Source: Actinocorallia sp. API 0066
Lineage (GTDB): Bacteria; Actinomycetota; Actinomycetes; Streptosporangiales; Streptosporangiaceae
Direction of reading: 5' to 3'
Assembly (NCBI RefSeq): GCF_020991275.1
Contig: NZ_JAJLQY010000001.1
Span: forward strand, 372,001-436,000
Length of the DNA: 64,000 nucleotides
The position numbers and the translations under genes are program-made. Numbering within the stretch: position 1 is the first letter of the stretch; each line of letters begins with the position of its first letter. Below, in pieces: positions 16,307 to 56,267 of this stretch. The notes beneath the pieces are model-generated. The model did not search any database. It saw only the letters and a program-made list of their open reading frames with translations, and had not been told where the DNA came from.

Positions 16307-18157
<1,851 letters not shown>

Positions 18158-20289: not shown

Positions 20290-21678
20290 TCAGGTGAGGT
20301 GGACGGTGCCGGTGACGTCGGCGGCCAGCCGTAGCGAGTCGCCGTCCTGGAGGAACGCCTCGACGCCGGGGGAGAGCCGCTCGCCGTTGACGAACGTGCC
20401 GTTGGTGGAGCGCTCGTCGCGCACCTTGGCGACGCCGGACGGGTCGAGCCACACCGTCGCGTGCTTGCGCGACACGTTGTCGTACTGGGTGAAGGTCGAG
20501 GCGGCGGGTGACTGGCCCGCGTCCCGGCCCAGGATGAGCTGCTGGCCGATGGTCACCTTGAGCTCGCCGGTGGGGAACGCGAGGCGCAGCGTCGGGCCTC
20601 CGCCGCCGGGCCGCAGCGGCTTCAGGCAGACGTTGCACTGGGTGGCCGCGGGGTTGACCAGCACGCTCTCGCAGTGCGGGCACATCGCGGCGGTGCTGTC
20701 GCCGTGCGGGGGCTGCTGGCGGTGCTCCGGCGGGACGAGCGTGCCGTCCCGCGCGGGCGGCGGGTCGAGCGGGCCGCGGCGGCCGTACGGGTCCTGGGGC
20801 TGGCCGTAGCCGCCGCCCTGGGGCGGCTGCCCGTAACCCTGCTGGGGCTGGCCGTAGGGGTCGGCGGCGGGCTGCCCGTAGCCCTGCTGCGGCTGCGCGT
20901 ACGGGTCCTGCCCGCCCTGCGGGGGCTGGCCGCCGTAGCCGCCGCCCTGCGGGGGCTGCCCGTACCCCTGCTGCGGCTGCGCGTACGGATCCTGGCCCTG
21001 GGCGTACGGGTCCTGGCCCTGCGGGGGCTGGTTGCCGTACTGGCCGCCCTGGGGCTGCTGCCCGTAGCCCTGCTGCGGCTGTGCGTAGGGGTCCTGCCCG
21101 CCCTGCGGGGGCTGGCCGTAGCCGCCGCCCTGCTGCGGGGGCTGGCCGCCGTAGCCGCCGCCCTGCGCGGGCGCCGCGTACGGGTCCTGGCCGCCCTGGG
21201 GCTGGCCGTAGGGATCCTGGCCCTGGGGCTGGGCGTACGGTTCCTGGCCCTGCGGGGGGGCCGCGTACGGGTCCTGGGGCTGCTGCTGGCCGTAGCCGCC
21301 CTGCGGGGGCTGCCCGTAGCCCTGCTGGGGCTGGCCGTAGGGGTCGGCGGCGGGCTGCCCGTACCCGCCTCCCTGCGGCTGCGCGTAGGGGTCCTGGTTA
21401 CCGTACTGGCCGCCCTGGCCGCCCTGGCCGCCCTGGGGCTGCTGCCCGTAGCCCTGCTGCGGCTGTGCGTACGGGTCCTGCCCGCCCTGCGGGGGCTGGC
21501 CGCCGTAACCGCCGCCCTGCGGGGGCTGCCCGTACCCCTGCTGCGGCTGGCCGTAGGAGTCGGAGGGCTGCTGCGGGCGCCGCCGCCGGCCGCGGGTGAG
21601 GTTGTTCCCGCAGGTCAGGCAGATCAGATCGCCCGGGTTGTGCGGGGTCTGGCAGACCTCGCAGGTCAGAGTCTCCAT
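20290..21678 (-). CDS. FHA-domain protein with two zinc ribbons and a Tyr/Gln/Gly/Pro-rich linker
   Basis: 462 residues, last gene of the five-gene operon; it overlaps the radical-SAM gene by 13 bases. An N-terminal zinc ribbon has CxxC pairs at 6/9 and 20/23. A 250-residue low-complexity part repeats units like [19 protein letters not shown] second ribbon (MCPHCE ... CNVCLKPL) precedes a C-terminal FHA domain ([26 protein letters not shown]). FHA domains read phosphothreonine, so a Ser/Thr kinase in the same operon is its natural writer. The role of the linker is unknown. Confidence 0.9.
20810..21560 (-). repeat. Degenerate tandem repeats coding the FHA protein linker
   Basis: Units of roughly 20-60 bases coding for combinations of [13 protein letters not shown] and [11 protein letters not shown] are repeated in frame across 750 bases. 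This is a coding repeat and not a CRISPR array: units vary in length and there are no unique spacers. Confidence 0.85.
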
Positions 21679-22355
21679 GACGCCTCCCCGGCTCGTACTC
21701 CGGCCCCGTCCAGCACCGCGCTCAGACGATCCATGTCGCCTCGGCGCGGGATGCCGATGTAATACACCCGCCGTCCTTCCGCACCGTCCTCGACGCACAC
21801 CTGCATGCGCCGCCCGTTGTGTCCCTCGTGTTCGTACCGTTTCCTGCCGAGCGCAGTCAGCGGGACGAGCCTCTGGTTCGCCGACCCCCGGAGCGGGGAG
21901 CCGTCGTCGAGCCGTTCCACGTACGGCCCCGTCACCACAGCGTCGCACAGTTCCAGGATGTTCCGCGACTCCGGGACGCGGGACAACCGTGAGCTTACAT
22001 ATCCGGAAAAAACGAGGATGTCCAACTCGCGTGACCCGCGCCACACGTGGATGCCCCGCAACAGCGCCAACAGGGCCGCTGGCTGCTGGAACGGCTCCCC
22101 GCCGGAGATCGTGACCCCGTCGACGGGCGGGAGTCCGTCGAGCCAGCCGAGCACCTCCGCGACGGGCAGCAGCCGGCTGTCGTCGGCGGGCCACGTGTCG
22201 GTGGACAGGCACCCGGGGCACGCGAGCGTGCAGCCCTGGAACCAGATGCCCGCCCGGACTCCGGGGCCCAGCGCCGTCACCGGGTGGTGCGTCTTCGCGA
22301 GCCGCAGAAGCACGTCCCCGGCGTCGGGAGGGTCGGCGGTGGACGGCCCGGTCAT
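21666..22355 (-). CDS. Radical-SAM activating-enzyme-like protein (NrdG/4Fe-4S single-strand type)
   Basis: 229 residues. The cluster motif GCTLACPGC supplies Cys42, Cys46 and Cys49 (CxxxCxxC), and GGEP (85-88) is the SAM-binding motif. Size and pattern match the small glycyl-radical activating enzymes such as NrdG. No anaerobic ribonucleotide reductase or other glycyl-radical enzyme is near, so the usual partner is missing. It overlaps the AAA+ gene by 4 bases and the FHA gene by 13, which points to a role within this operon. The radical substrate is unknown. Confidence 0.85.
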
Positions 22356-24175
22356 GGGGCGATGTCGAGTTCGGCGATGCTGCCCTCACGCTTGATCCCC
22401 TGCACGGTGATCTCCTCTCCTGCCTGAAGGTCCCGTTCGAACAGCGCGCGCGCGAGCGGGTTGACGAAGTGGGCCTCCAGGGCCATGCCGATGCCCCGGC
22501 CGCCCTTGTCCAGCTCCGCCGTGCACCACTCGCGCAGCGTCCCCAGCACCTCGGACTTGACGGCGAGGGAGACGCGGTGCTCCTCGGTGACGCGGCGGCA
22601 GATGTTCTCCAGCTGGAGGTCGAAGATCTTCGACGCGGCCTCGGCGCCGATGAAGTTGAACACGATGATGTTGTCGCCGAGCCGGTTGAGCAGCTCGGGC
22701 CGGTTCAGCACGGCGGTGAAGTGGTCGGAGATGGCGCCCTTGATCCGGTGCTCGATCTCCGCGTACCCCAGGCCGGGGATCACCTTGGACGACCCCAGGT
22801 TCGAGGTGAAGATGAGGATGGACTCGGAGAAGTGGACGGTGTGGCCGCGCCCGTCGGTGAGGCGGCCGTCCTCCAGGATCTGGAGGAACTTGTCGAGGAT
22901 GCGCGGGTGCGCCTTCTCGATCTCGTCGAAGAGGATCACCCGGAACGGGTCCTCCCGCACGGCGTTGGTGAGCTCGCCGCCCGCCTCGTGTCCGACGTAG
23001 CCGGGCGGGGAGCCGATGAGCCGGTCGCCGGCCTGCTCGGCGGAGAACTCCGACATGTCGAACCGCAGGTAGGCGCCGTCGTCGCCGAACACCAGCGAGG
23101 TGATCGCCTTGGCCAGCTCGGTCTTGCCGGTGCCCGTCGGCCCGGCGAAGAACAGCACGCCGCGCGGCCGTGAGCCGGACTTGGTGGCCTGCGCGCCCGA
23201 AAGCCCGAGCACGGCCCGCTTGAGGATGTCGAGGGTCTTGGTGACGGCCTGGGGCTGCCCCAGGACCCGTTCGGGGACCCGCTTCTCCCCGTCCAGGACG
23301 CGCTTGCGCAGGTGGCCGCGCGACCACGGGTTGTCCAGCACGCCGAGCTTGTAGGTGCGGACGGCGTCGGGCAGGTCGGCGAGGTCGACGTTCTGCTCCT
23401 TGGCCAGCCGGGTGACCTCGATCATCGACTGGAGGGTGAGGCCGTCGGCCTGCTCGGCGAACGCGTCGCAGGCGTCGGCCGCGGCCTGGTCCTCGTTGGG
23501 GTCGGCGGCGAAGGCGCGGGCCAGCAGCCGTGCGGTCTGCTGACGGTCGCCCAGGTGCGGCCGAGGTAGGGCGATCTCGCGTATCGCGTCGTTCCCGGCC
23601 ACCAGCCAGGACGGCAGGTCGCCCGGCCGCTCGGCCAGCCAGATGATCGGGTTGTAGAACGGCTTCGGCCTGATGCCGGGCGCCCGGACCGGCCGCGCGG
23701 TGCGGGCCAGCTTCTCGCAGAACCGGAAGAAGTCGCGCTCGGCGGGCTGCAGGTCGGTCGCCGACGCGGCGATCCGCGACGCGCCCTCGATGAGGAACGC
23801 GGCGCGCACCTGCTCGGCGGGGCGCGCCAGCGCCGCCAGATGCTTGGTGAGGCCCTCGAGCGACGGCTTGGGGTCCCACTTGCCGAGCAGCTTCCCGGCG
23901 GCCTCCAGCGCGTCCTCGTCGTCCGGGTGGACGCGCAGGCCGTCGACGGGGTCGTAGCTGAGCAGGCAGGACATGCCGCTCGACTGGAGCGCCTCCCACA
24001 GCAGCTCGCGCAGCGGCAGGAGCGCGATCTCGCCGCCGTTGGGGAACAGGAAGCTGTCGTAGAGGTTGCCCGACAGGACGTACTGCGAATGCACGGACAG
24101 GGTGGCGTCGAGTTCGCGGATGAACGGAGGCCAGCCCGTCAGTCGGCCGCCCAAGGTCGGCTGTTCATTGCTCAA
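22352..24175 (-). CDS. Clp-like AAA+ ATPase with an atypical N-terminal half
   Basis: 607 residues from a TTG start with AAGGA 8 bases upstream. The C-terminal half is a ClpA/ClpB D2-type module: Walker A GPTGTGKT (345-352), pore loop GYVG (392-395), Walker B VILFDE (413-418), sensor-1 FTSN and a Clp C-terminal subdomain. The N-terminal 290 residues resemble a second AAA+ core without Walker [10 protein letters not shown] at 32, FLIEGA at 128 and [15 protein letters not shown] at 176. The pore loop suggests threading of a protein substrate. The N-terminal reading is inference. Confidence 0.85.
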
Positions 24176-25277
24176 CGTGGCGTTCCTTCGGCTTCTGCCG
24201 CTTGCGGCGTGCTTGTGTCACTGATTCTCCCGTGACGGGAAGCTGTTCCGCGCCGGGTTCCAGCCGCCAGGTGACGGCCATGCCGAGGCCGCCCGCGGCG
24301 AGCCGCTCCCTGGCCTCCTCGAACGCCTCGCACCAGGCGCGTTCCCGTTCGGCGTCCCTGCGGCGGTCGTCCTCGCTCTCGGGGGGACGGGTGCGCAGCA
24401 TCTTGGCCCGCAGCGTCCCGTCCTCCAGGCGCATCCTGACCGCCTGGTCCGGCCACTCACCGCGGGTGAGGACGAGGCCGCCGTCGTCGGCGGTGCGCGT
24501 CTCGAAGCCGGTGTCCACCTCGTAGCCGAGGTCCTCGAACGCCTTGGTGACGCTCTCCAGGACGTACCGCCTCTCGGCCTCCGCCTGCGCGACGCGTTCC
24601 TGTTCGGCCATCCACGCCTTCACGCGCGCGCGCTCGGCCCGGGTGTTCTCGTTGGCGTCCTGCACGCGCAGCCTTACCTCGCTGAGGAGGCTCTCGGCTT
24701 CGGCGTCCGTGGGGGCTCCGGCTACTCGGGCGGCGGCCTCGTGGACCCGTCCCCGGTCGGCGTCGGACGCGTCGGGCAGCAGCCGGGCCAGGACCCGCGC
24801 CAGATCGGCGGTGCGGTCGGCGGCGCGGTCGCGCGGCGCCGCCGTCTCCCGCGCGACGAGATCGGCCGCGACGACGTCGGCGAGCCTTGCGGCGAGGGCT
24901 TTCTCGGCCTCGTCGAGCGCCCGGTCCACGGCGGCGCACCACTCGACGACCTCCTCATAGGACCTGTCCATGAGGTCGAGCTCTTCGGGCAGCGGCAAGG
25001 CGACCGCGGCACCGTGCGCGCGCGCTGCCTCGTGCACGGTGTCGCGCAGGGCGCGCACCCGCGCGTTGCGGTCCACCGCCTCGCGCAGCGCCCGCTCGTG
25101 GCGTTCCAGGGCGGCGAGCGCCTCGGCGCGGGCGCCCGCCTTCTTCTCGGCGAGCGCGGCGAACGCCTCGGCGCCCTTGGCCGCGGCCCCCGCGCCCGCG
25201 CCGAGCAGCCGGTTCGTGCCGAGACTGGCGATCACCGCCGCGTCCAGCACGATCTCGGCTTCCACACCACTGCTCAT
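24165..25277 (-). CDS. Coiled-coil protein of the kinase-AAA-FHA operon, unknown function
   Basis: 370 residues, rich in Ala, Glu and Arg, with predicted long helices over about 30-250 and a smaller alpha/beta C-terminal part (YEVDTGFETRTADDGGLVL and following). No known catalytic motif is visible. It overlaps the AAA+ gene start by 11 bases and follows the kinase by 44 bases. It may be an adaptor or substrate for the other operon products; I do not recognise a family. Confidence 0.75.
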   Translation of the reverse strand: MSSGVEAEIVLDAAVIASLGTNRLLGAGAGAAAKGAEAFAALAEKKAGARAEALAALERHERALREAVDRNARVRALRDTVHEAARAHGAAVALPLPEELDLMDRSYEEVVEWCAAVDRALDEAEKALAARLADVVAADLVARETAAPRDRAADRTADLARVLARLLPDASDADRGRVHEAAARVAGAPTDAEAESLLSEVRLRVQDANENTRAERARVKAWMAEQERVAQAEAERRYVLESVTKAFEDLGYEVDTGFETRTADDGGLVLTRGEWPDQAVRMRLEDGTLRAKMLRTRPPESEDDRRRDAERERAWCEAFEEARERLAAGGLGMAVTWRLEPGAEQLPVTGESVTQARRKRQKPKERHVEQ

Positions 25278-25321
25278 CTACCGCTCTCTCCCTGGGACGG
25301 CCGCCTCATGATTCCGTCCGG

Positions 25322-26893
25322 TCAGTCTCCTATGACTTCGGCGCGGCGTGCGGAGTTCGCGGTCCGCCAACGGTGCGCGCGCAGACCGCCGCCCACGGCG
25401 TGCGCCACGGTGCCGACCGCGATCGCCAGAAGCCAGAGCATCCAGGCGAGCGCGCTCAGGGCCGACAGCAGGAGCAGGAGCAGCAGAAGCGGGATCGTCG
25501 CGGCCAGCAGGGCGAGCCCGCACCCGCGCGCGCCGGTGCGCTGCGCCGTCGCCGACATCGCCCGCGACGTCTTGGACAGCCCGCCCCCGGTGAGCCGGGC
25601 CGCCTTCGCCAGCGTCGCCCACGGCCCCTCGACGAGGTAGTCGCTGCCCTGCCGGGACGCCAGCGCGACCTCCACCGCGCAGGACACCAGCCACGCGGCG
25701 ACCGCCGCGGTGAGGAGCAGCCCGAGCGGGACGGGCATCTTCTGCACCTCGTTGACGGCGCGCACCCGGTCCGGCTCGCCGCCGAACAGCGCCTCGACGG
25801 CGACGCTCCCGGCCGTCCACAGCGCAAGGAACGGCAGCGACCACAGCACCGCCCGCACGCGTGCCCTACCGGCGCCCGCCTTACGGGCGCTCTCCTTCTG
25901 CTCCCACAGGGCGCGCCGTCCTTCGGCGCGGTAAGCGTCCTCGGCCGCTTTCAGCTCCGGAGACGGCGCCACCCGCTGCGGTTCGGGAGGCCGCGCCTCG
26001 GGCACCCGGACGACGGGCGCGGCCGCCTCGGCGTGCACGGGCGGGGTCTCGCCGCGCAGCCACGCGGTGACCTCCGGGTACCCCCAGCGGTGCCGCGGGT
26101 CGCGGGTGAGCAGGCCGCGGCACAGCAGCCGCAGGTGCGGGTCGTCGACGTCGGTGTTGTCGATCGGCCGGGTCGCCAGATGGTCGACGACGACCGTCTC
26201 GCTCATCCCGTCGAACGGCGCGCGGCCGGTGACGAGCTCCCGCGCGATCATCCCGAGCGACCACCAGTCGCGCGCGGGGGAGACCTGCCCTGACAGCGAC
26301 TCGGGCGCCGCGTAGGCGAGCGTGCGCGACGACGACGCGAACACGACGCTCTGCTCCAGCACCCGGCTCAGCCCGAAGTCGGTGATGACAAGATCGGCGC
26401 CCCGCACGAGCACGTTCTCCGGCTTCAGGTCGCGGTGCACGATGCCCGCGTCGTGCAGCGCCTTCAGCCCGTCGGCGAGCTGTGCTACGACGGCGGTCGG
26501 ATCGACCCTGGCCGCGCGGGTGAGCCGTCGGAGGTTCCCCTCCGGCAGGTACTCCATGATCTCGTAGTCGCGCCCGTCGGCGTGCCCGGTCTCCAGCACC
26601 CGCACCACGTGCCGCGACCGCAGCCGCGGCACCTGCTCCCACACCGCGGGATCCGCCCGGTACCCCCGCCGGTAGATCTTCACGACGTACCGGCCGTCGG
26701 CGTCCCCGACGTCCCTGACCAGCAGCAGATCCGACTCGGCCCCCTGGACCGGCAGTTCCCCCTCGGCCCTGAACCGTCCCGCCAACACCCCCGGCAGCCG
26801 GATGAGCCCTTCGCCGGGAGCGCCCGCCTCCGGGCCGGCTCCGTCCCGACTGGTAACCCCCGGATCCCGTCGCGTCCACTGCGGGTCGTCCAC
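25322..26893 (-). CDS. Membrane Ser/Thr protein kinase, first gene of the operon
   Basis: 523 residues from a GTG. Kinase motifs: Lys72 in VVKIYRR, catalytic loop HRDLKPEN (153-160), DFG at 172-174 and APES. The glycine-rich loop is poorly conserved. After the kinase domain (to about 285) come a Pro-rich linker, a charged helix and about four hydrophobic helices in the last 170 residues, so the catalytic domain should face the cytoplasm. A TAGGCT hexamer 6 bases before the start suggests a leaderless transcript. It is the likely writer for the FHA domain encoded at the operon's end. Confidence 0.9.
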   Translation of the reverse strand: MDDPQWTRRDPGVTSRDGAGPEAGAPGEGLIRLPGVLAGRFRAEGELPVQGAESDLLLVRDVGDADGRYVVKIYRRGYRADPAVWEQVPRLRSRHVVRVLETGHADGRDYEIMEYLPEGNLRRLTRAARVDPTAVVAQLADGLKALHDAGIVHRDLKPENVLVRGADLVITDFGLSRVLEQSVVFASSSRTLAYAAPESLSGQVSPARDWWSLGMIARELVTGRAPFDGMSETVVVDHLATRPIDNTDVDDPHLRLLCRGLLTRDPRHRWGYPEVTAWLRGETPPVHAEAAAPVVRVPEARPPEPQRVAPSPELKAAEDAYRAEGRRALWEQKESARKAGAGRARVRAVLWSLPFLALWTAGSVAVEALFGGEPDRVRAVNEVQKMPVPLGLLLTAAVAAWLVSCAVEVALASRQGSDYLVEGPWATLAKAARLTGGGLSKTSRAMSATAQRTGARGCGLALLAATIPLLLLLLLLSALSALAWMLWLLAIAVGTVAHAVGGGLRAHRWRTANSARRAEVIGD

Positions 26894-28603: not shown

Positions 28604-29179
28604 TCACCGCTGCCCGGTGCTCCGCCGGATCTTCTGCAGCTCCTCGGTGATCTTGAACTGGTTGATCACGAACTCCAGCGCCAGCCTGACCATGACGACC
28701 TGGAAGATCCAGGTGAGCGGGGCGACGACGCACGCGATGACGAGCGGCCAGGCCGAGGCGTCCTCGTACGGGTTGTTGCCGCCGAGTCCCCAGATGAACA
28801 GGAACAGCCCGATGCTGAAGAGCGTGATGATAACGAGCGACAGTATGTAGAAGCCCCGGATGAGCATCGGGGTGACCATCGCGTCGAACCTGGTGTCCAG
28901 CAGCGAGCCGAAGAAGCCCCTGCGCCGGACGGGCGGCGGCCCCGCGGGCGGGCGCGGGTCGCCCTGCGGCGGGAGGACGGGCTGGGGCCCGGTGTGCTGG
29001 GGGCCGCCCTGCTGCCACTGCGGCGGCGGGCCGGGGGGCCGCTGCGGCCCGGGGGGCGTCGGCCCGGGGGGCGTCGGCCCGGGGGGCGCCTGCGGCGGCG
29101 GCGTCTGCTGCGGTGGCGTGTCGGGGCGGACGCCGTACTGGTGCGGGTTGAAGCGCGGCTGCTCCGGCGGGGTAGTCAC
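28604..29179 (-). CDS. DUF4282-family membrane protein
   Basis: 191 residues from a GTG, with TAAGGT 6 bases upstream. An 85-residue Pro/Gln-rich N-terminus precedes GFFGSLLDTRFDAMVTPMLI, two membrane helices (about 107-130 and 144-166) and RLALEFVINQFKITEELQKI. This is the DUF4282 layout found widely in actinobacteria. No function is established. Confidence 0.8.
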   Translation of the reverse strand: MTTPPEQPRFNPHQYGVRPDTPPQQTPPPQAPPGPTPPGPTPPGPQRPPGPPPQWQQGGPQHTGPQPVLPPQGDPRPPAGPPPVRRRGFFGSLLDTRFDAMVTPMLIRGFYILSLVIITLFSIGLFLFIWGLGGNNPYEDASAWPLVIACVVAPLTWIFQVVMVRLALEFVINQFKITEELQKIRRSTGQR

Positions 29180-51341: not shown

Positions 51342-52175
51342 TCAATCTCCATTGCTTGCTTCGCTCTGTATCTCGTCCACGGTCAGTTCTGCCTCTCCGG
51401 TGACTTCGACGTCTGCGAGGTCGTCGCCCAGGTCGGTGCAGTTGGGAGCTGGGGCACATACCCAGGCGACCTCATAGACAACTGTGGCCGAGATCGTATA
51501 GGTGCCACCGGGCTGGTTCGCGGACCCTTGCTTGTAGGAATATTCACATTCGACTCCGGGACCGACACCCTTGACCTTTCCGGGGCCAGGGCACTGAACC
51601 TCATCTTCGACGAGATTCCAGAGGACAAGTTTCGGGGTCGCGGTGGCTGTAACGGTCTGTGGTGCTATTCCGGTTCCCGGGCCGCCAACAGATGCTTGGG
51701 AAACGACTACCTCGAACTGCTCCTGGTCGATCCAGAAAGCCGTTTTCAAACGGACATAGGTTTCGTCTTCCGGAGCGTAGTGGATCACCGGGATGAGGAA
51801 CTGGGCGGCGTCAAGTGCAGCGTCTACCAATGGTCCTGTGGGCACGATGGCAGGGGGTGGTGGGACATTGTCGCCATCACCGAAGCACCCGCCGCCTACG
51901 CCGCCACAGTTCGCCGGGCCGTTGCCTGGGCCGCCGCCGTTTCCGCCGCCTCCGCCGCCCGGGCCGTTGCCTGGGCCGTTTCCGCCGCCGCCGTTGCCGG
52001 GGGTTTCGCCGTCGGCGGCGCAGACGACCTGGGGTTGGCCGTTGACGGTGATGGTGATGCAGCCGGCGAGAGCGGGGGAGGGAGCGGCGACGAGTCCGAT
52101 GGCGACCAGGACGGTGACCAGGATGGCTGCGGGTAGGCGTCTTCTGGGACGGGGCTGTCCGTGGGGGGTCAGCAT
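51342..52175 (-). CDS. Secreted Gly/Asn-rich protein, module copy 1
   Basis: 277 residues. A signal peptide (about 15-37) is followed by a Gly/Asn/Pro-rich stretch (about 62-100) and a C-terminal domain containing ATATPKLVLWNL and VVYEVAWVCA. The C-terminal domain matches that of the protein at 58472 (RPTRIVWDL, TVEYRVAWRC). The ATG overlaps the upstream lipoprotein stop by 7 bases (ATGCTGA). Probably a surface protein; function unknown. Confidence 0.75.
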   Translation of the reverse strand: MLTPHGQPRPRRRLPAAILVTVLVAIGLVAAPSPALAGCITITVNGQPQVVCAADGETPGNGGGGNGPGNGPGGGGGGNGGGPGNGPANCGGVGGGCFGDGDNVPPPPAIVPTGPLVDAALDAAQFLIPVIHYAPEDETYVRLKTAFWIDQEQFEVVVSQASVGGPGTGIAPQTVTATATPKLVLWNLVEDEVQCPGPGKVKGVGPGVECEYSYKQGSANQPGGTYTISATVVYEVAWVCAPAPNCTDLGDDLADVEVTGEAELTVDEIQSEASNGD

Positions 52176-52747
52176 GGCTTGCCTCTCCGTGCTTCTGTGA
52201 TCTTCCAGGTGGTCCCGTCGAACCGGAAGCGGGCCTGATAGTCGAAGGTGGTGCCCGGGACGCTCTTCAGCTTCTTGCCGGTCTTCGCGTCGAAGGTGTG
52301 GGCGGCGATGGTGCGGACGCAGTCGCGGACCACGACCGACGTGAAGTCCACCGCCCGGCTGATCACCTTGGGGTTGAGTACGTTGGTGAAGCGGAGGACG
52401 GTGCCCTTGGTGTTCATGGCTTCGACGTCGTCCGTCACGATCGTGAGGAGGGGGTCTGCCGCGACCTCGGCGAGGTCGGAGGCGTTGCCCGTGGCGTACG
52501 CCTTGCGGTAGAGCTGTTGGTACTTGCGGTACTGGGCCAGCACGATCTTGTCGACCTGGCGTTTGCCCAGCGTCGGCGTGGTGAGGGGGGAGGCGACGGA
52601 GACCGGGGACTGAGGTGGCGGGGACCCGGACGGCGCGAACGCCCCGTTGCCGGTCGGGTCGTCCGCTCGGCCGCAGCCGGAAATGGTCAGGGCGAGGACG
52701 AGCAGCACTGAACCGCTGGTGAATTGGCGGAGCCGGGCATTCGTCAT
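52169..52747 (-). CDS. Lipoprotein with NTF2-like domain, module copy 1
   Basis: 192 residues with lipobox ISGC. The mature part (VLAQYRKYQQLYRKAYATGNASDL then FDYQARFRFDGTTWKITEARRG) has the helix-then-strand layout of NTF2-like domains. It is a paralogue of the lipoprotein at 59098, and both end in Cys-stop. It overlaps the next gene by 7 bases and is divergent from the kinase at 52904. Confidence 0.78.
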   Translation of the reverse strand: MTNARLRQFTSGSVLLVLALTISGCGRADDPTGNGAFAPSGSPPPQSPVSVASPLTTPTLGKRQVDKIVLAQYRKYQQLYRKAYATGNASDLAEVAADPLLTIVTDDVEAMNTKGTVLRFTNVLNPKVISRAVDFTSVVVRDCVRTIAAHTFDAKTGKKLKSVPGTTFDYQARFRFDGTTWKITEARRGKPC

Positions 52748-52789
52748 TTCGCCTGCTCAATCCGTCGTCACGGGGTGGACCCGAGCGGG

Positions 52790-52820
52790 AGCCTACTAAT
52801 CCGTCAGACCGCACGGTAAC
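52790..52820 (-). promoter_or_regulatory. Possible promoter of the lipoprotein module copy 1
   Basis: Minus-strand TTACCG (52820-52815) and TAGGCT (52795-52790) are 19 bases apart, 42 bases before the ATG. Confidence 0.4.
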
Positions 52821-52903
52821 CCCTGTGCCGCAAGTGTTATGGACGGAATCCTGACTTGTGTGGAAGCATTCGTTGATCATGCTCCGGCGCGGAGGGATCA
52901 CCG

Positions 52904-55228
52904 ATGGGCGAGGTCTGGCGCCTTCGCGGATTCACCGAGCTGGCGGAACTCGGTTCGGGCGCCCAGGGTCGGGTGGTGCTGGCGCGGCGCGACGGTGAAG
53001 ACGGGACCGTCGCGATCAAGTACCTGGCGCCGGAACTGTTGGCGGACGCGGCTTCTCTCGCCGTTTTCCGTGGTGAGGCGACGGTCCTGGCGCGTATAAC
53101 GGATCCGCACGTGGCGACGCTGTACGGATACGTCGAGGAGGCAGCGGGCGCGGCCATCCTCATGGAGGCCGTCGACGGGACGTCCCTGCGCCGGATTCTC
53201 GACGCGCACGGCGCCCTGAGCCCCGAGGCGGCACTCGTTGTGCTGAAGGGCGCACTGCTCGGCTTGGCCGCGGCGCACCGGTCGGGGATCGTCCACCGGG
53301 ACTTCAAGCCGGCGAACGTCATGGTGGAGCCGGACGGGAACAGCAAGCTCATCGACTTCGGGATCGCGGTGCTCCGGGGCCAGGGGGGACGTTCCGGAAC
53401 ACCTGCTTACATGGCGCCGGAGCAGTGGCAGGGCGCCGCGGCCACATCGGCGACGGACCTGTACGCGGCGACCTGCGTCTTCTTCGAGTGCGTGACAGGA
53501 CGCCCGCCTTACCGGGGCGTGAGTATCGAGGCCCTGCGCGCGCAGCACGTGTCCGGGCCTCCACCGACGGAGGCGCTGCCCGAGGCTCTTGCCCCCTTGG
53601 CGCTGCGAGGCATGGCCAAGGATCCGGCCGAACGATCGGCGGACGCCGAGGAGTTCGTCTCGGAGCTGGAGGAGGTCGCGGCGGGCGAGTACGGCCGGGA
53701 CTGGGAGGCCGTCGGGCTGCGGGCGCTGGCCGGATCGACGGCGGCCCTGGCGACGGGTGCGGTGGCGGTGGTCGGCAAGTCGGGGATCCTCGCGAAGATC
53801 GGGGGCTGGAAGGTGGCCGCGGGCGTCGCGGCGGCCGGATCGGTGACCATCGCCGTCACCGGGGTGGTCTTCTGGCCGAGCGACGATCTCGCCCCCGCGT
53901 GGGACACGCGCGCGGTCAGACCGGCGAGCGGCGTGGTGGCGGTCGACGGGGGCTTTGTGCTCTACGGGCACGACGGCCTTGGCGGTTTTGAGGCGGTGGG
54001 CCTGGAGGCGGAGAGCGGGCGGGTCCGTTGGCGGGACTCCGCGACGCCCTCGGCCAACGTGCACGGGGTCGGGCTGTATATGCGGGCGACCGAGCGGACG
54101 GCCTACTACATGCGTCCGGTGGGGCCGCCTGCGACACGGATGGCGGAACTCGTCGCGGCGGACGCCGGGACGGGTAGGCAGCGATGGACGTACGGCTCCG
54201 AAGGGCTGCTGTTCGTGGCTCCGCCCTCGCTGTGCGCGGCCGGGAGGATCTGCGTTTCGGTGTTCCGTGGTCCGTCGGCGCGCAGCGAGGTGCTGGACGC
54301 GGAGAGCGGGCGCCTGCTCAGTTCGTCTCCCACGGTCGATGGTCGCGCGCTCGGCCGGGTGGATGACGGCGAGACGGCCGGTGTCCTTTACGTGTCCCGG
54401 GAAGGCGGTGATCTGATGCTCGTGTCGGTCGACGGCCGGGTCCGATGGCGGAAGCCCGCGGCGGAGCTGTTCGGCACCGAGGTGACGCCCGACATGGGAT
54501 GGCACATCCAGGACGAGGGAGGGGTCTTCGCGGGGCAATTGGGGAGGCCGGGCTTCCTGGACCGGGGGACGGGTGTGCTGAGGCTGGATCACACGGTGAC
54601 CGCGGGCTTCGACGTGCGGTCGGGGACCCCGCTCTGGTCCGACTCCGGCAGCACGGTGTTCTGCGGAGCCGTCGACTACGACATCGCCCATCCGGTGCGC
54701 TGCCGGAAGAAGGGGACGTCGGAGGGCGGAGAGCTGAGCGGCCTCGACGTGACCCTGGAGGGATTCGACCCGAGGTCGGGCGCGGTCCGTTGGTCGTGGC
54801 ACGCGGGGCGGGTGGAGGGGCTGGCGGAGAGTTCGGGTTCCGGCGTGCTGAGGATCAGCGATGTCGAGTACCTGATCCGCAACGAACAAGGCGCGTGGGT
54901 GCTGCACCTGGATGAGGGGGTGCGCCCGCTGCGGTCGGAGCCCCCGGTCGGCTGGTGCTCGGGTGCGGGGAAGGTACCCGGTGTCCCGGGAACGACGGTC
55001 CCGTCCGGGGGTGAGAACGCCTACCACCTGGAGACGCAACGGCCCTGTACGGCTGACGGCGCGACGGTGAAGGTGCCGAGGACCGCGCCGCTTTTCGCCG
55101 GGGCGCGGTCGGGGGGTGTTTTTGTGTGGGTTGATGAGGGGGTGGTGCGGGCGGTCAGGGTTGGGTTAGGTGGGGCGTCGACGGGGGAGGTGGGGGCTGG
55201 CATGGTGGGGGTTTGGGTTTGTGGGTGA
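52904..55228 (+). CDS. Ser/Thr protein kinase with extracellular PQQ-like propeller
   Basis: 774 residues after GGAGGGA. PknB-type kinase domain: GSGAQG loop (17-22), Lys39, HRDFKPAN (131-138), DFG (151-153) and APE. After residue 280 there is one membrane helix (about 308-326), then repeated beta-propeller blades (GFEAVGLEAESGRVRWRD, AADAGTGRQRWTYG, GFDPRSGAVRWSW). This is the layout of receptor kinases that sense outside the cell. Divergent from the lipoprotein-secreted-lipoprotein set, whose products might be its ligands or partners. Confidence 0.92.
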   Translation: MGEVWRLRGFTELAELGSGAQGRVVLARRDGEDGTVAIKYLAPELLADAASLAVFRGEATVLARITDPHVATLYGYVEEAAGAAILMEAVDGTSLRRILDAHGALSPEAALVVLKGALLGLAAAHRSGIVHRDFKPANVMVEPDGNSKLIDFGIAVLRGQGGRSGTPAYMAPEQWQGAAATSATDLYAATCVFFECVTGRPPYRGVSIEALRAQHVSGPPPTEALPEALAPLALRGMAKDPAERSADAEEFVSELEEVAAGEYGRDWEAVGLRALAGSTAALATGAVAVVGKSGILAKIGGWKVAAGVAAAGSVTIAVTGVVFWPSDDLAPAWDTRAVRPASGVVAVDGGFVLYGHDGLGGFEAVGLEAESGRVRWRDSATPSANVHGVGLYMRATERTAYYMRPVGPPATRMAELVAADAGTGRQRWTYGSEGLLFVAPPSLCAAGRICVSVFRGPSARSEVLDAESGRLLSSSPTVDGRALGRVDDGETAGVLYVSREGGDLMLVSVDGRVRWRKPAAELFGTEVTPDMGWHIQDEGGVFAGQLGRPGFLDRGTGVLRLDHTVTAGFDVRSGTPLWSDSGSTVFCGAVDYDIAHPVRCRKKGTSEGGELSGLDVTLEGFDPRSGAVRWSWHAGRVEGLAESSGSGVLRISDVEYLIRNEQGAWVLHLDEGVRPLRSEPPVGWCSGAGKVPGVPGTTVPSGGENAYHLETQRPCTADGATVKVPRTAPLFAGARSGGVFVWVDEGVVRAVRVGLGGASTGEVGAGMVGVWVCG

Positions 55229-55245
55229 TGAGGAGGAGGAGTGGG

Positions 55246-55920
55246 ATGAGTGGGGTGGCTCGGCATGGGGTGGGGGTGGTTTTGGGGGTGGTTTTGGGGG
55301 TGGTGGTCTGGGGGCCGCTGCTTCTGGGGCTGGCCTTTGGGATGGAGCAGGTGCGGCGGGCGGCGCTTGTCTCGCTTGGGGTGGGGGTTCGGCCTGAGTT
55401 CTGGGGTGGGGCGGTGACGCTTGTGGGGCTCGGGGTGGTTGTGGGGGTGTTGTGTGGGTCTCGGGTGTCGCCGCTCGCGTCGCTGGTGCCCGGGGTGTTG
55501 AACCTGCTGGTCGCGGTCGTGTGGCTCGTCGACGCGCGGGCGGTGTACTCGCTGGTGTTCGACTTCGCGCCGCGCCGGATCGGGTCCGGGCTGGTGACGG
55601 TGATCGGCGGTGGGACGCTGCTGCTGTTCGGGGTGCTGCTGGTGGCGGCGTCCGTGCCGCCGTCGCGGTGGCGGGCCGGGGTGCGGGCGGCGCGACCGCC
55701 GCTGCCCGGGGTGCCGCCGATCCCGTTCGGCGGCGGAGCCGGTGCCGTGCCGCCCCCGCACGTCCCCGGACCCGCGCAGCCGTTCGCGCCGGGCGGCGAG
55801 GCTCCGCACGCGCCGTCGTACGGGCCCGCGCAGGGGGGGCCGTACGGGGCCGGGGTGCCGCCGGAGGGGCCGGCGCCGGAGGGGAGTCGGTGGATGGAGC
55901 CGGGGAAGGGGGAGCGGTGA
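55246..55920 (+). CDS. Membrane protein with Pro/Gly-rich tail, unknown function
   Basis: 224 residues from the ATG after GGAGGAGG; an ATG at 55228 overlapping the kinase stop is also possible. Four hydrophobic helices (about 10-30, 55-72, 80-95, 112-132) and a Pro/Gly/Ala-rich cytoplasmic-like tail. Between the receptor kinase and a STAS gene it could be part of a signalling operon; nothing diagnostic is visible. Confidence 0.65.
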   Translation: MSGVARHGVGVVLGVVLGVVVWGPLLLGLAFGMEQVRRAALVSLGVGVRPEFWGGAVTLVGLGVVVGVLCGSRVSPLASLVPGVLNLLVAVVWLVDARAVYSLVFDFAPRRIGSGLVTVIGGGTLLLFGVLLVAASVPPSRWRAGVRAARPPLPGVPPIPFGGGAGAVPPPHVPGPAQPFAPGGEAPHAPSYGPAQGGPYGAGVPPEGPAPEGSRWMEPGKGER

Positions 55921-56267
55921 AGGGGAGGAGGGAGCTTCCGGTGGGGGTGCGGGAGGTTGAGGGGGCGGTCGTCGTGCGGCCTCGGGGGGAGGTGGACATG
56001 TCGACGGCGCCGGGGTTGCGGGAGGAGCTGGACCGGTTGATCTCGGGCGGGGCGCGCAGGGTCGTCGTGGACCTCGCGGAGGTGACGTTCCTGGACAGCA
56101 CGGGGCTCGCGGTTTTTGTCGGGGTGTGGCAGCGGCTGCGGAACGAGGGCGGGTCGTTCGCGCTCGCCGCCGCGCCCGCGCACGTGGCGTCGCCGATGCG
56201 GCTGACGGGGCTCGACAGGTCGCTGAACCTGCGGGAGACGGTCGAGGACGCGCTCGCCGAACGGTGA
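55917..56267 (+). CDS. STAS-domain anti-sigma factor antagonist
   Basis: 116 residues from a GTG overlapping the previous stop (GTGA). PRGEVDMSTAPGLREEL and VTFLDSTGLAVFVG are the SpoIIAA/RsbV hallmarks; Ser in DSTGL is the residue phosphorylated by anti-sigma kinases. It should bind and neutralise an RsbW-type anti-sigma factor when dephosphorylated. No such kinase or sigma factor is in the window. Compare with the altered copy at 58018. Confidence 0.9.
   Translation: MKGRRELPVGVREVEGAVVVRPRGEVDMSTAPGLREELDRLISGGARRVVVDLAEVTFLDSTGLAVFVGVWQRLRNEGGSFALAAAPAHVASPMRLTGLDRSLNLRETVEDALAER

Follow-up and report, generated by a model that had tools for sequence, protein, structure and literature searches.

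A window of 64,000 nucleotides from Actinocorallia sp. API 0066 (contig NZ_JAJLQY010000001.1, positions 372,001 to 436,000; positions below are counted from the first letter of the window) contains five genes on the minus strand (26893–20290), encoding in this order a kinase, a coiled-coil protein (CC), a AAA+ protein, a radical-SAM protein and an FHA protein. These five genes are one inherited and selected unit, in which the AAA+ and radical-SAM genes, usually with CC, form a more ancient core found in the company of signalling and effector-type genes. The genes and the features within them are as follows.

25322–26893, minus strand: Ser/Thr protein kinase, 523 residues (Pfam Pkinase, 2e-33)
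24165–25277, minus strand: coiled-coil protein CC, 370 residues, without a Pfam family
22352–24175, minus strand: double-AAA+ Clp-type protein, 607 residues, TTG start (AAA_2, 5.3e-45; ClpB_D2-small, 1.3e-6)
23321–24139, minus strand: degenerate N-terminal AAA+ ring, ca. residues 13–285, diagnostic of the family, without Walker A, aligning to the first-ring region of ClpB
22991–23008, minus strand: second-ring pore loop PPGYVG, residues 390–395 (motif in 102 of 103 family members)
21666–22355, minus strand: NrdG-like radical-SAM protein, 229 residues (Fer4_12, 6e-25)
22209–22232, minus strand: CxxxCxxC 4Fe-4S motif, residues 42–49 (99 of 99 family members)
20290–21678, minus strand: FHA reader, 462 residues (FHA, 6.6e-13)
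20326–20532, minus strand: FHA domain, residues 383–451 (Pfam)

The last four genes overlap by 11, 4 and 13 bases, and a gap of 44 bases separates the kinase gene from the CC gene. These coordinates agree with an earlier, sequence-only reading of the window, which had described five genes on one strand with the same three overlaps. The 11-base overlap between CC and AAA+ holds because the AAA+ start is taken as the TTG at 24175; the internal start at 24154 picked by the gene caller would abolish it. Relatives of the AAA+ protein align from the TTG residue, mostly with Met or Val at that position. The mechanical open reading frame at 22389–20290 (699 residues) exceeds the FHA gene, for which the ATG at 21678 gives 462 residues. 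All five genes are under purifying selection, with ratios of nonsynonymous to synonymous substitution rates (Ka/Ks) of 0.12–0.43 against two congeners.

In the structural model of the AAA+ protein, residues 13–607 aligned to residues 181–857 of ClpB (Z 21.9, root-mean-square deviation (rmsd) 9.9, 460 residues aligned), and both rings are therefore present, without the Clp N-domain. The second ring of the window protein carries Walker A (GPTGTGKT), Walker B (LFDEIEK) and the pore loop; across the family, Walker A was found in 103/103 members, Walker B in 102/103 and the arginine finger in 100/103. In the first ring, Walker A was found in none of the 103 members, the window protein included, and judged by its motifs this ring, having no nucleotide-binding motif, is dead. 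The protein had been proposed from its sequence to be a threading module with a GYVG pore loop; by motif the second ring does appear threading-competent, and the AAA+ protein is very likely to thread a protein substrate. It is like ClpB and ClpC in its overall alignment to ClpB and in its second ring with Walker A and B, arginine finger and GYVG loop, whereas it differs from them in having no region matching the Clp N-domain and no Walker A in the first ring. An ordinary ClpB or ClpC was ruled out by this first ring and by scores far below the equivalog cut-offs (curated ClpB model: 251.7 bits against 1232.1; ClpV1 model: 199.9 bits against 884.95). No ClpP loop of the IGF/IGL type was seen by eye after sensor 1 in the second ring of the window protein, and a protease partner is therefore not favoured. 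A DNA search of E. coli genomes with the AAA+ query, which would miss diverged relatives, matched 1466 records, none covering 80% of the query; the 15 matches listed were clpB or another Clp subunit. Similarly, none of 149 matching phage records covered 80% of the AAA+ query, the eight matches listed covering residues 209–616 at most, and PHROGs gave general matches only.

The radical-SAM protein matched Radical_SAM (1.8e-4) below the cut-off of that Pfam family. Its best curated model was NrdG (TIGR02491), which aligned to residues 28–164 and scored 80.6 bits (1.1e-22) against a cut-off of 126.1; the curated PFLA model was also among its best matches. In the PDB, the best match of the family profile was the pyruvate formate-lyase (PFL)-activating enzyme (5.7e-17), and QueE was matched weakly (3.1e-4). 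Besides the invariant cysteine motif, GG[ED]P was found in 98 of the 99 family members, and the shortened protein of locus L103 was without the GGE motif. Judged from these motifs, the window protein is probably an active enzyme. It is like NrdG and the PFL-activating enzyme in its single CxxxCxxC domain, its alignment to the NrdG model and the profile match to the PFL-activating enzyme, and unlike them in its sub-cut-off score, its pairing with a AAA+ protein and the lack of any glycyl-radical partner found; it also has an extra C-terminal segment.

The search for such a partner was negative in two ways. NrdD was matched in none of 31 genomes, the strain's own included (positive control: signal in 6/14), and the glycyl-radical domain PF01228 in none of 13, again with the own genome included (positive control: signal in 3/14). 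The first result together with the sub-cut-off score ruled out an NrdG/NrdD pair, and the second ruled out a canonical glycyl-radical enzyme, linked or unlinked. The view taken from the sequence that this activase occurs without its usual partner is supported by these searches. The closest models being glycyl-radical activases, the protein could in principle serve a hidden glycyl-radical enzyme of strongly diverged sequence, with its gene elsewhere in the genome. This is highly improbable in view of the two null searches with responding controls and of the close pairing with a AAA+ protein, not with a barrel enzyme. It is also conceivable that the radical-SAM protein, like viperin or QueE, makes a small molecule and that this signal, a nucleotide or cofactor, controls the AAA+ protein or the kinase, with no radical modification of a protein. 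The weak QueE match fits such a role, as does the weak match of a plasmid relative (L155) to prokaryotic viperin (2.5e-7). However, the best models were the protein-acting activases named above, and the window protein had no match to prokaryotic viperin at E ≤ 0.1, making this explanation rather improbable. To our knowledge, the targets of radical-SAM activases are dedicated glycyl-radical enzymes or peptides, and no case of coupling to a protein-threading ring is known.

The kinase domain (ca. residues 39–275) contains the catalytic lysine, HRDLKPEN and DFG, and the C-terminus has four hydrophobic membrane segments at residues 348–496 by hydropathy. Among the kinases of relatives, HRD was present in 62/70 and DFG in 67/70; the misses were fragments (L103, L079, L115), unrelated kinases (L116, L123) and three full-length proteins without HRD (L129, L131, L132). 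The Actinocorallia kinase is ca. 260 residues shorter than the ca. 780-residue Actinomadura forms, the gap lying between the kinase domain and the membrane segments. The FHA protein consists of two zinc-ribbon-like cysteine pairs (identified by eye; DZR fell below the Pfam cut-off), a repetitive linker rich in Q, P, G and Y, and the C-terminal FHA domain. The linker (20719–21576) is a run of imperfect repeats of a 12-residue type, and in nine relatives it was Q/P/G-rich in five, S/P/R-rich in Spirillospora and short in Streptomyces, Acrocarpospora and Amycolatopsis. SRKH and NGT are present in the FHA domain of the window protein, and SRxH was found in 76 of 77 relatives, the exception being a 63-residue fragment. 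With the catalytic residues of the kinase and the phospho-binding residues of the FHA domain both intact, the two proteins may well form the write/read pair suggested earlier from their sequences. That reading had noted neither that the first AAA+ ring is dead, nor that the kinase has four membrane segments, nor the conflict-type neighbours described below.

In the AlphaFold model of CC (mean predicted local distance difference test (pLDDT) 83.9), long helices precede a small C-terminal domain of alpha/beta type (ca. residues 250–337). The model had no Foldseek match at E ≤ 0.001, and a search of PDB sequences with a CC alignment yielded no significant match. CC homologues are found beside AAA+ in Actinomycetota and in the Rhizobium type. 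By profile, CC was found in 27 of 32 varied loci, 22 with a general profile and five with a plasmid-type profile (the helicase-PIN plasmids described below); both CC profiles, as well as those of radical-SAM and PP2C, derive in part from loci included in the counts. Of the five loci without a profile match, the Actinoallomurus one has CC elsewhere, L046 was linked by profile comparison, and L049, L146 and L147 have a coiled-coil protein with a similar C-terminus at or near the same position, as judged by position and by eye. The accessory actinobacterial type (L046, L050, L173) was firmly linked to CC (hhalign probability 98, E 2.8e-13). The Rhizobium protein was matched independently by the actinobacterial profile (4.5e-8). 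The Aristaeella protein was not matched by that profile, and its assignment rests on position and on the MSGPK start that is common to several CC proteins (Streptomyces, Rhizobium, Caballeronia, Aristaeella). Comparison of the actinobacterial and helicase-PIN plasmid types gave an hhalign probability of 59 (E 9.2e-5) over the C-terminal 117 columns and of 12 with a narrower alignment, so that by sequence comparison the plasmid protein is a probable, not a firm, homologue of CC. This unnamed coiled-coil family is a marker of the system.

The distribution of the operon was examined by a pattern-based scan of genome_contigs (one genome per species, 84,980 species) with the N-terminal half of the AAA+ protein, and the best 80 of 131 confirmed places, mostly in Actinomadura, were kept; as the query was this half alone, the other four genes lay outside the search. 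The five genes occurred in the same order and on the same strand at 64 of the 80 loci. At eight others a contig end cut off a gene, including L125, which was counted here though FHA directly follows AAA+ and its radical-SAM gene is on another contig, and the remaining eight deviated. Thus, the five-gene neighbourhood co-occurs across genomes, and its homologues were not found scattered, an outcome that would have contradicted the sequence-only reading. Seven of the eight deviating loci were of an Actinoallomurus type (one named Actinomadura sp. DC4) with no kinase and CC beside AAA+; CC was present elsewhere in all three such genomes searched. In two Actinoallomurus-type genomes, CC adjoins the kinase at the usual location of the operon, next to a proline-rich DUF4282-type protein (Pfam-tested in one of the two) and a TypA-like GTPase recognised by eye. 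In the eighth deviating locus (L128), the radical-SAM gene has moved downstream of a PP2C gene. Acrocarpospora phusangensis (L125/G145) has two complementary loci, namely kinase-CC-AAA+-FHA and, on contig 10 (L043), kinase-CC-radical-SAM. The broken operons that were followed up retain their genes elsewhere; the genes are therefore still kept despite splitting.

The N-terminal half of AAA+ was found in all three genomes of the window's genus and in 60 of 60 genomes of an Actinomadura-type genus, among which G895 had a match split into three parts, of which one contained a stop, and four (G121, G883, G889, G898) had a second, diverged copy with other neighbours. Elsewhere it was patchy (9/394 genomes of the class and 6/396 of the phylum, the own genome included). 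Two further genes of the window recur around the operon:

28604–29179, minus strand: DUF4282 membrane protein, likely associated (PF14110, 3.6e-17)
16307–18157, plus strand: typA/BipA, a synteny marker and not a component (Pfam BipA_C, 4.2e-45)

A DUF4282 homologue lies directly upstream of the kinase on the same strand at 43 of the 80 loci, 66 of which hold the kinase, and is also found in Actinoallomurus; this protein is likely to be associated with the operon. A typA/BipA homologue was nearby in 60 of 81 loci (window included), and NUDIX and NlpC/P60 neighbours were syntenic with the operon as well. This shared synteny might suggest that the five genes are chance neighbours in a conserved stretch of chromosome. 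However, in Streptomyces and Amycolatopsis the five genes are found in the absence of those neighbours, the core recurs in Bacillota and Pseudomonadota, and the genes are retained when the operon splits. The distant loci refute a chance neighbourhood, the likelihood of which is close to nil, and the five genes are almost certainly one functional unit.

The older core became apparent among the 32 varied loci holding the N-terminal half of AAA+. The radical-SAM gene was present in all 32, and in 28 of 28 (window included) after exclusion of the four loci found through radical-SAM (L046, L048, L049, L163); it was not directly adjacent to AAA+ in L048, L143, L147 and L174. Maximum-likelihood trees of the two proteins from 38 loci agreed in most well-supported groups, with a warning of long branches from the tool. 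The exceptions were L143 and L174, in which the radical-SAM gene is separated from the AAA+ gene and falls into a different clade. Pairwise distances of the two proteins were correlated with r = 0.896 over the 38 loci, against a permutation maximum of 0.411 in a control that ignores shared ancestry and includes no unrelated gene, and with r = 0.784 within the 26 actinobacterial loci. The five-gene composition singled out by the sequence-only reading is thus a real unit locally. However, it is a local edition of a deep core of AAA+ and radical-SAM, usually with CC, for which kinase, FHA and PP2C are frequent partners.

Whole-genome censuses covered Actinomycetota, and other phyla were reached through plasmids and the one pattern-based scan (best 80). 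On plasmids of Acinetobacter, Leisingera, Moellerella, Polaromonas and Photobacterium, the genes are arranged as helicase, PIN protein, CC-type protein, AAA+ and radical-SAM. The five helicases are homologous (E ≤ 6e-96 against that of Acinetobacter), as are the PIN proteins, weakly so in Leisingera. Pfam and PADLOC analysis of the plasmid proteins covered Acinetobacter and Rhizobium. The Acinetobacter helicase (L155) matched Mokosh MkoA at 8.7e-96; the PIN protein of the same locus contains PIN_4 and has an N-terminus weakly matching MkoB (1.1e-5). In Rhizobium, AAA+ and radical-SAM are followed by a kinase/DUF4011/helicase/MTES-nuclease fusion and CC, and a homologous fusion occupies the same place in Caballeronia. 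An Aristaeella plasmid (Bacillota) has in a row a kinase, a CC-type protein, FHA, radical-SAM, AAA+, PP2C, a DUF6273 protein and another kinase; a DUF4011 protein is encoded upstream of this row. Within Actinomycetota, the neighbours included PP2C (L126, L128, L129, L134, L135, L144, L145 and others), CHAT (L046, L174), TPR-S (L050) and vWA (L049, L147). L128 has TPR repeats and a weak NACHT/NB-ARC match below the cut-off, and L147 carries GAP1, kinase, PP2C, vWA and HSP70 genes beside AAA+ and radical-SAM. These effector-type genes are neighbours of the core and may be parts of the system. A conflict-type origin of the module is slightly favoured.

Such neighbours raise the possibility that the whole family, the window copy included, serves anti-phage or anti-plasmid defence, with kinase and FHA sensing infection and AAA+ and radical-SAM preparing an effector. 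This would agree with plasmid copies in seven genera, five beside SF1 helicases and PIN proteins and two beside the kinase-DUF4011-helicase-MTES-type fusion, with the CHAT, TPR, TPR-S and GAP1 neighbours and the sub-threshold NACHT/NB-ARC match, and with the patchy occurrence in the phylum (6/396). However, no effector gene belongs to the window version, which occupies a single, fixed chromosomal region in the 60/60 and 3/3 genomes; this is unusual for defence genes. PADLOC found nothing for the window radical-SAM protein, no significant match for CC (best E 0.036), only partial matches for AAA+ and the kinase domain, and no match at E ≤ 0.001 for eight large neighbours. A defence role for all members, including the window copy, is therefore doubtful.

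Several known systems share parts of this composition. The phospho-control of type VI secretion consists of PpkA, PppA and Fha together with ClpV, and the present loci likewise bring together a Clp-type ATPase with a kinase, an FHA protein and, in some relatives, PP2C, whereas they have radical-SAM and CC in place of secretion genes. Type VI secretion was ruled out by the TssB sheath protein, found in none of six genomes (the own genome and five relatives). Mokosh, which is not known to include coiled-coil, AAA+ or radical-SAM proteins of this kind, is resembled by plasmid locus L155 with its MkoA-like helicase and its PIN protein with a weak MkoB match. Unlike Mokosh, the five window genes contain no helicase domain, and the window kinase matched only residues 8–276 of the 1112-position MkoA model. 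NTP-dependent conflict systems, in the available portions of their description, are built on MoxR, FtsH or GTPase engines; radical-SAM is named there alongside the FtsH-ternary and the FxSxx-peptide systems, and GAP1 occurs with a theme of kinase, PP2C and vWA (Kaur et al. 2020; PMC7159879). The likeness lies in a AAA+ or GTPase engine combined with kinase, PP2C, vWA, HSP70 and GAP1, as in L147, and the difference in that the Clp-type, NrdG-like and CC set is not among the systems described in those portions. By Pfam, no vWA or GAP1 is present among the five window genes. No description of this system was found in the open-licence literature, a scope outside which preprints and most subscription papers lie, in keeping with the earlier reading, to which no described system of this composition was known. 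The pairing of a Clp-type AAA+ protein with an orphan activase appears to be new in composition, as read from the sequences; it would count as a further variation if every AAA+/kinase conflict locus were taken as one kind.

Taken together, we propose, with a probability of roughly 0.45, that the operon encodes one phosphorylation-controlled machine for protein remodelling and protein modification. This reading rests on the conserved gene order and co-retention, the split operons that keep their genes, fixation in two genera and the agreement of the AAA+ and radical-SAM trees. It further rests on radical-SAM in all 32 AAA+ loci, the intact catalytic motifs, the Clp double-ring fold, the PFL-activase relatives, the absence of NrdD and Gly_radical matches in the 31 and 13 genomes, the PP2C, FHA and kinase partners in distant members and the effector-type neighbours. 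The membrane kinase would phosphorylate a partner, plausibly CC or a client, and the FHA/zinc-ribbon reader could gather the phosphorylated complex by means of its long disordered linker, with CC connecting the parts. The AAA+ protein would assemble as a Clp-like double ring, in which the dead first ring could act as a scaffold and the second would pull the client through the GYVG pore. The threaded or opened client may then be presented to the radical-SAM protein, a putative one-cluster activase related to NrdG and the PFL-activating enzyme, which would remove a hydrogen, leaving a glycyl-type radical or a radical-initiated change that switches the client on or off. A glycyl-radical activase has to gain access to a buried loop in its target, a problem that a threading ring would solve. 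Phospho-gating by the kinase and FHA protein is a likely part of this scheme, and the odds are about even that the radical-SAM protein acts on a protein handled by the AAA+ ring.

In mobile versions, the candidates for clients or outputs are the linked nuclease, protease, CHAT, TPR, GAP1 or death-type proteins. The version in Thermomonosporaceae might have been fixed as a module for stress response or quality control, with the client encoded elsewhere or among the operon proteins. A more specific form of the machine proposal holds that this is a new class of bacterial machine, in which the unfoldase threads or opens a folded protein so that the orphan activase can install a radical, or a change made by one, under kinase, phosphatase and FHA control, and that mobile elements use this to arm nuclease, protease or death-type effectors, the module having been taken over permanently into the chromosome in Thermomonosporaceae; in this full form it is a tentative and somewhat unlikely scenario.

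Several observations weigh against the proposed machine. The pairing is not absolute, because the radical-SAM gene has been exchanged or relocated in L143, L174 and L128. The full-length kinases of L129, L131 and L132 do not show the HRD pattern. Effector-type genes rarely stand beside the core, differ from locus to locus and are missing from the fixed version. Confidence in the AAA+ model is middling (pLDDT 74.7). The C-terminal domain of CC gave only a weak KA1-like match (Z 8.6, rmsd 4.2, 90 residues aligned), in the middling range according to the tool, and the sequence link of CC to the helicase-PIN plasmid version is only suggestive. Moreover, radical chemistry is oxygen-sensitive and the hosts here are mostly aerobic. 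The window operon has no linked candidate client. Even so, the putative threading ring, orphan activase and phospho-switch have stayed in one fixed and selected operon, and in three phyla relatives occur next to immunity-type genes. With this operon, it can be tested directly whether radical chemistry on proteins is gated by unfolding and whether bacterial immune effectors are armed by such chemistry.

Other combinations of AAA and radical-SAM genes were also encountered. No description of an arrangement of Ycf46, DUF1257, DUF2997 and radical-SAM was found in the open-licence literature. Plasmids of Paenarthrobacter, Rhodococcus and Paenibacillus (L164, L165, L167, L170) carry a second AAA+/radical-SAM arrangement, which comprises a single-AAA protein, a small protein (DUF1257 in Paenibacillus), DUF2997 and an NrdG-like radical-SAM protein; the actinobacterial plasmids have one further protein, with a helix-hairpin-helix in two of them. 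In a Treponema succinifaciens plasmid (L168, 8899–11054), an NrdG-like radical-SAM gene and a AAA gene lie between genes of a contractile injection system, the flanking genes being annotated as VgrG/Pvc8-family and baseplate assembly protein V. A Calothrix plasmid (L166, 3433–14132) has in a row Hsp70, a TPR protein, radical-SAM, an unassigned 494-residue protein and a double AAA protein. Finally, positions 52001–56000 of the window showed strong strand skew (GC skew 0.22, AT skew −0.18) over a second kinase-like gene (52904–55228) and its neighbours.

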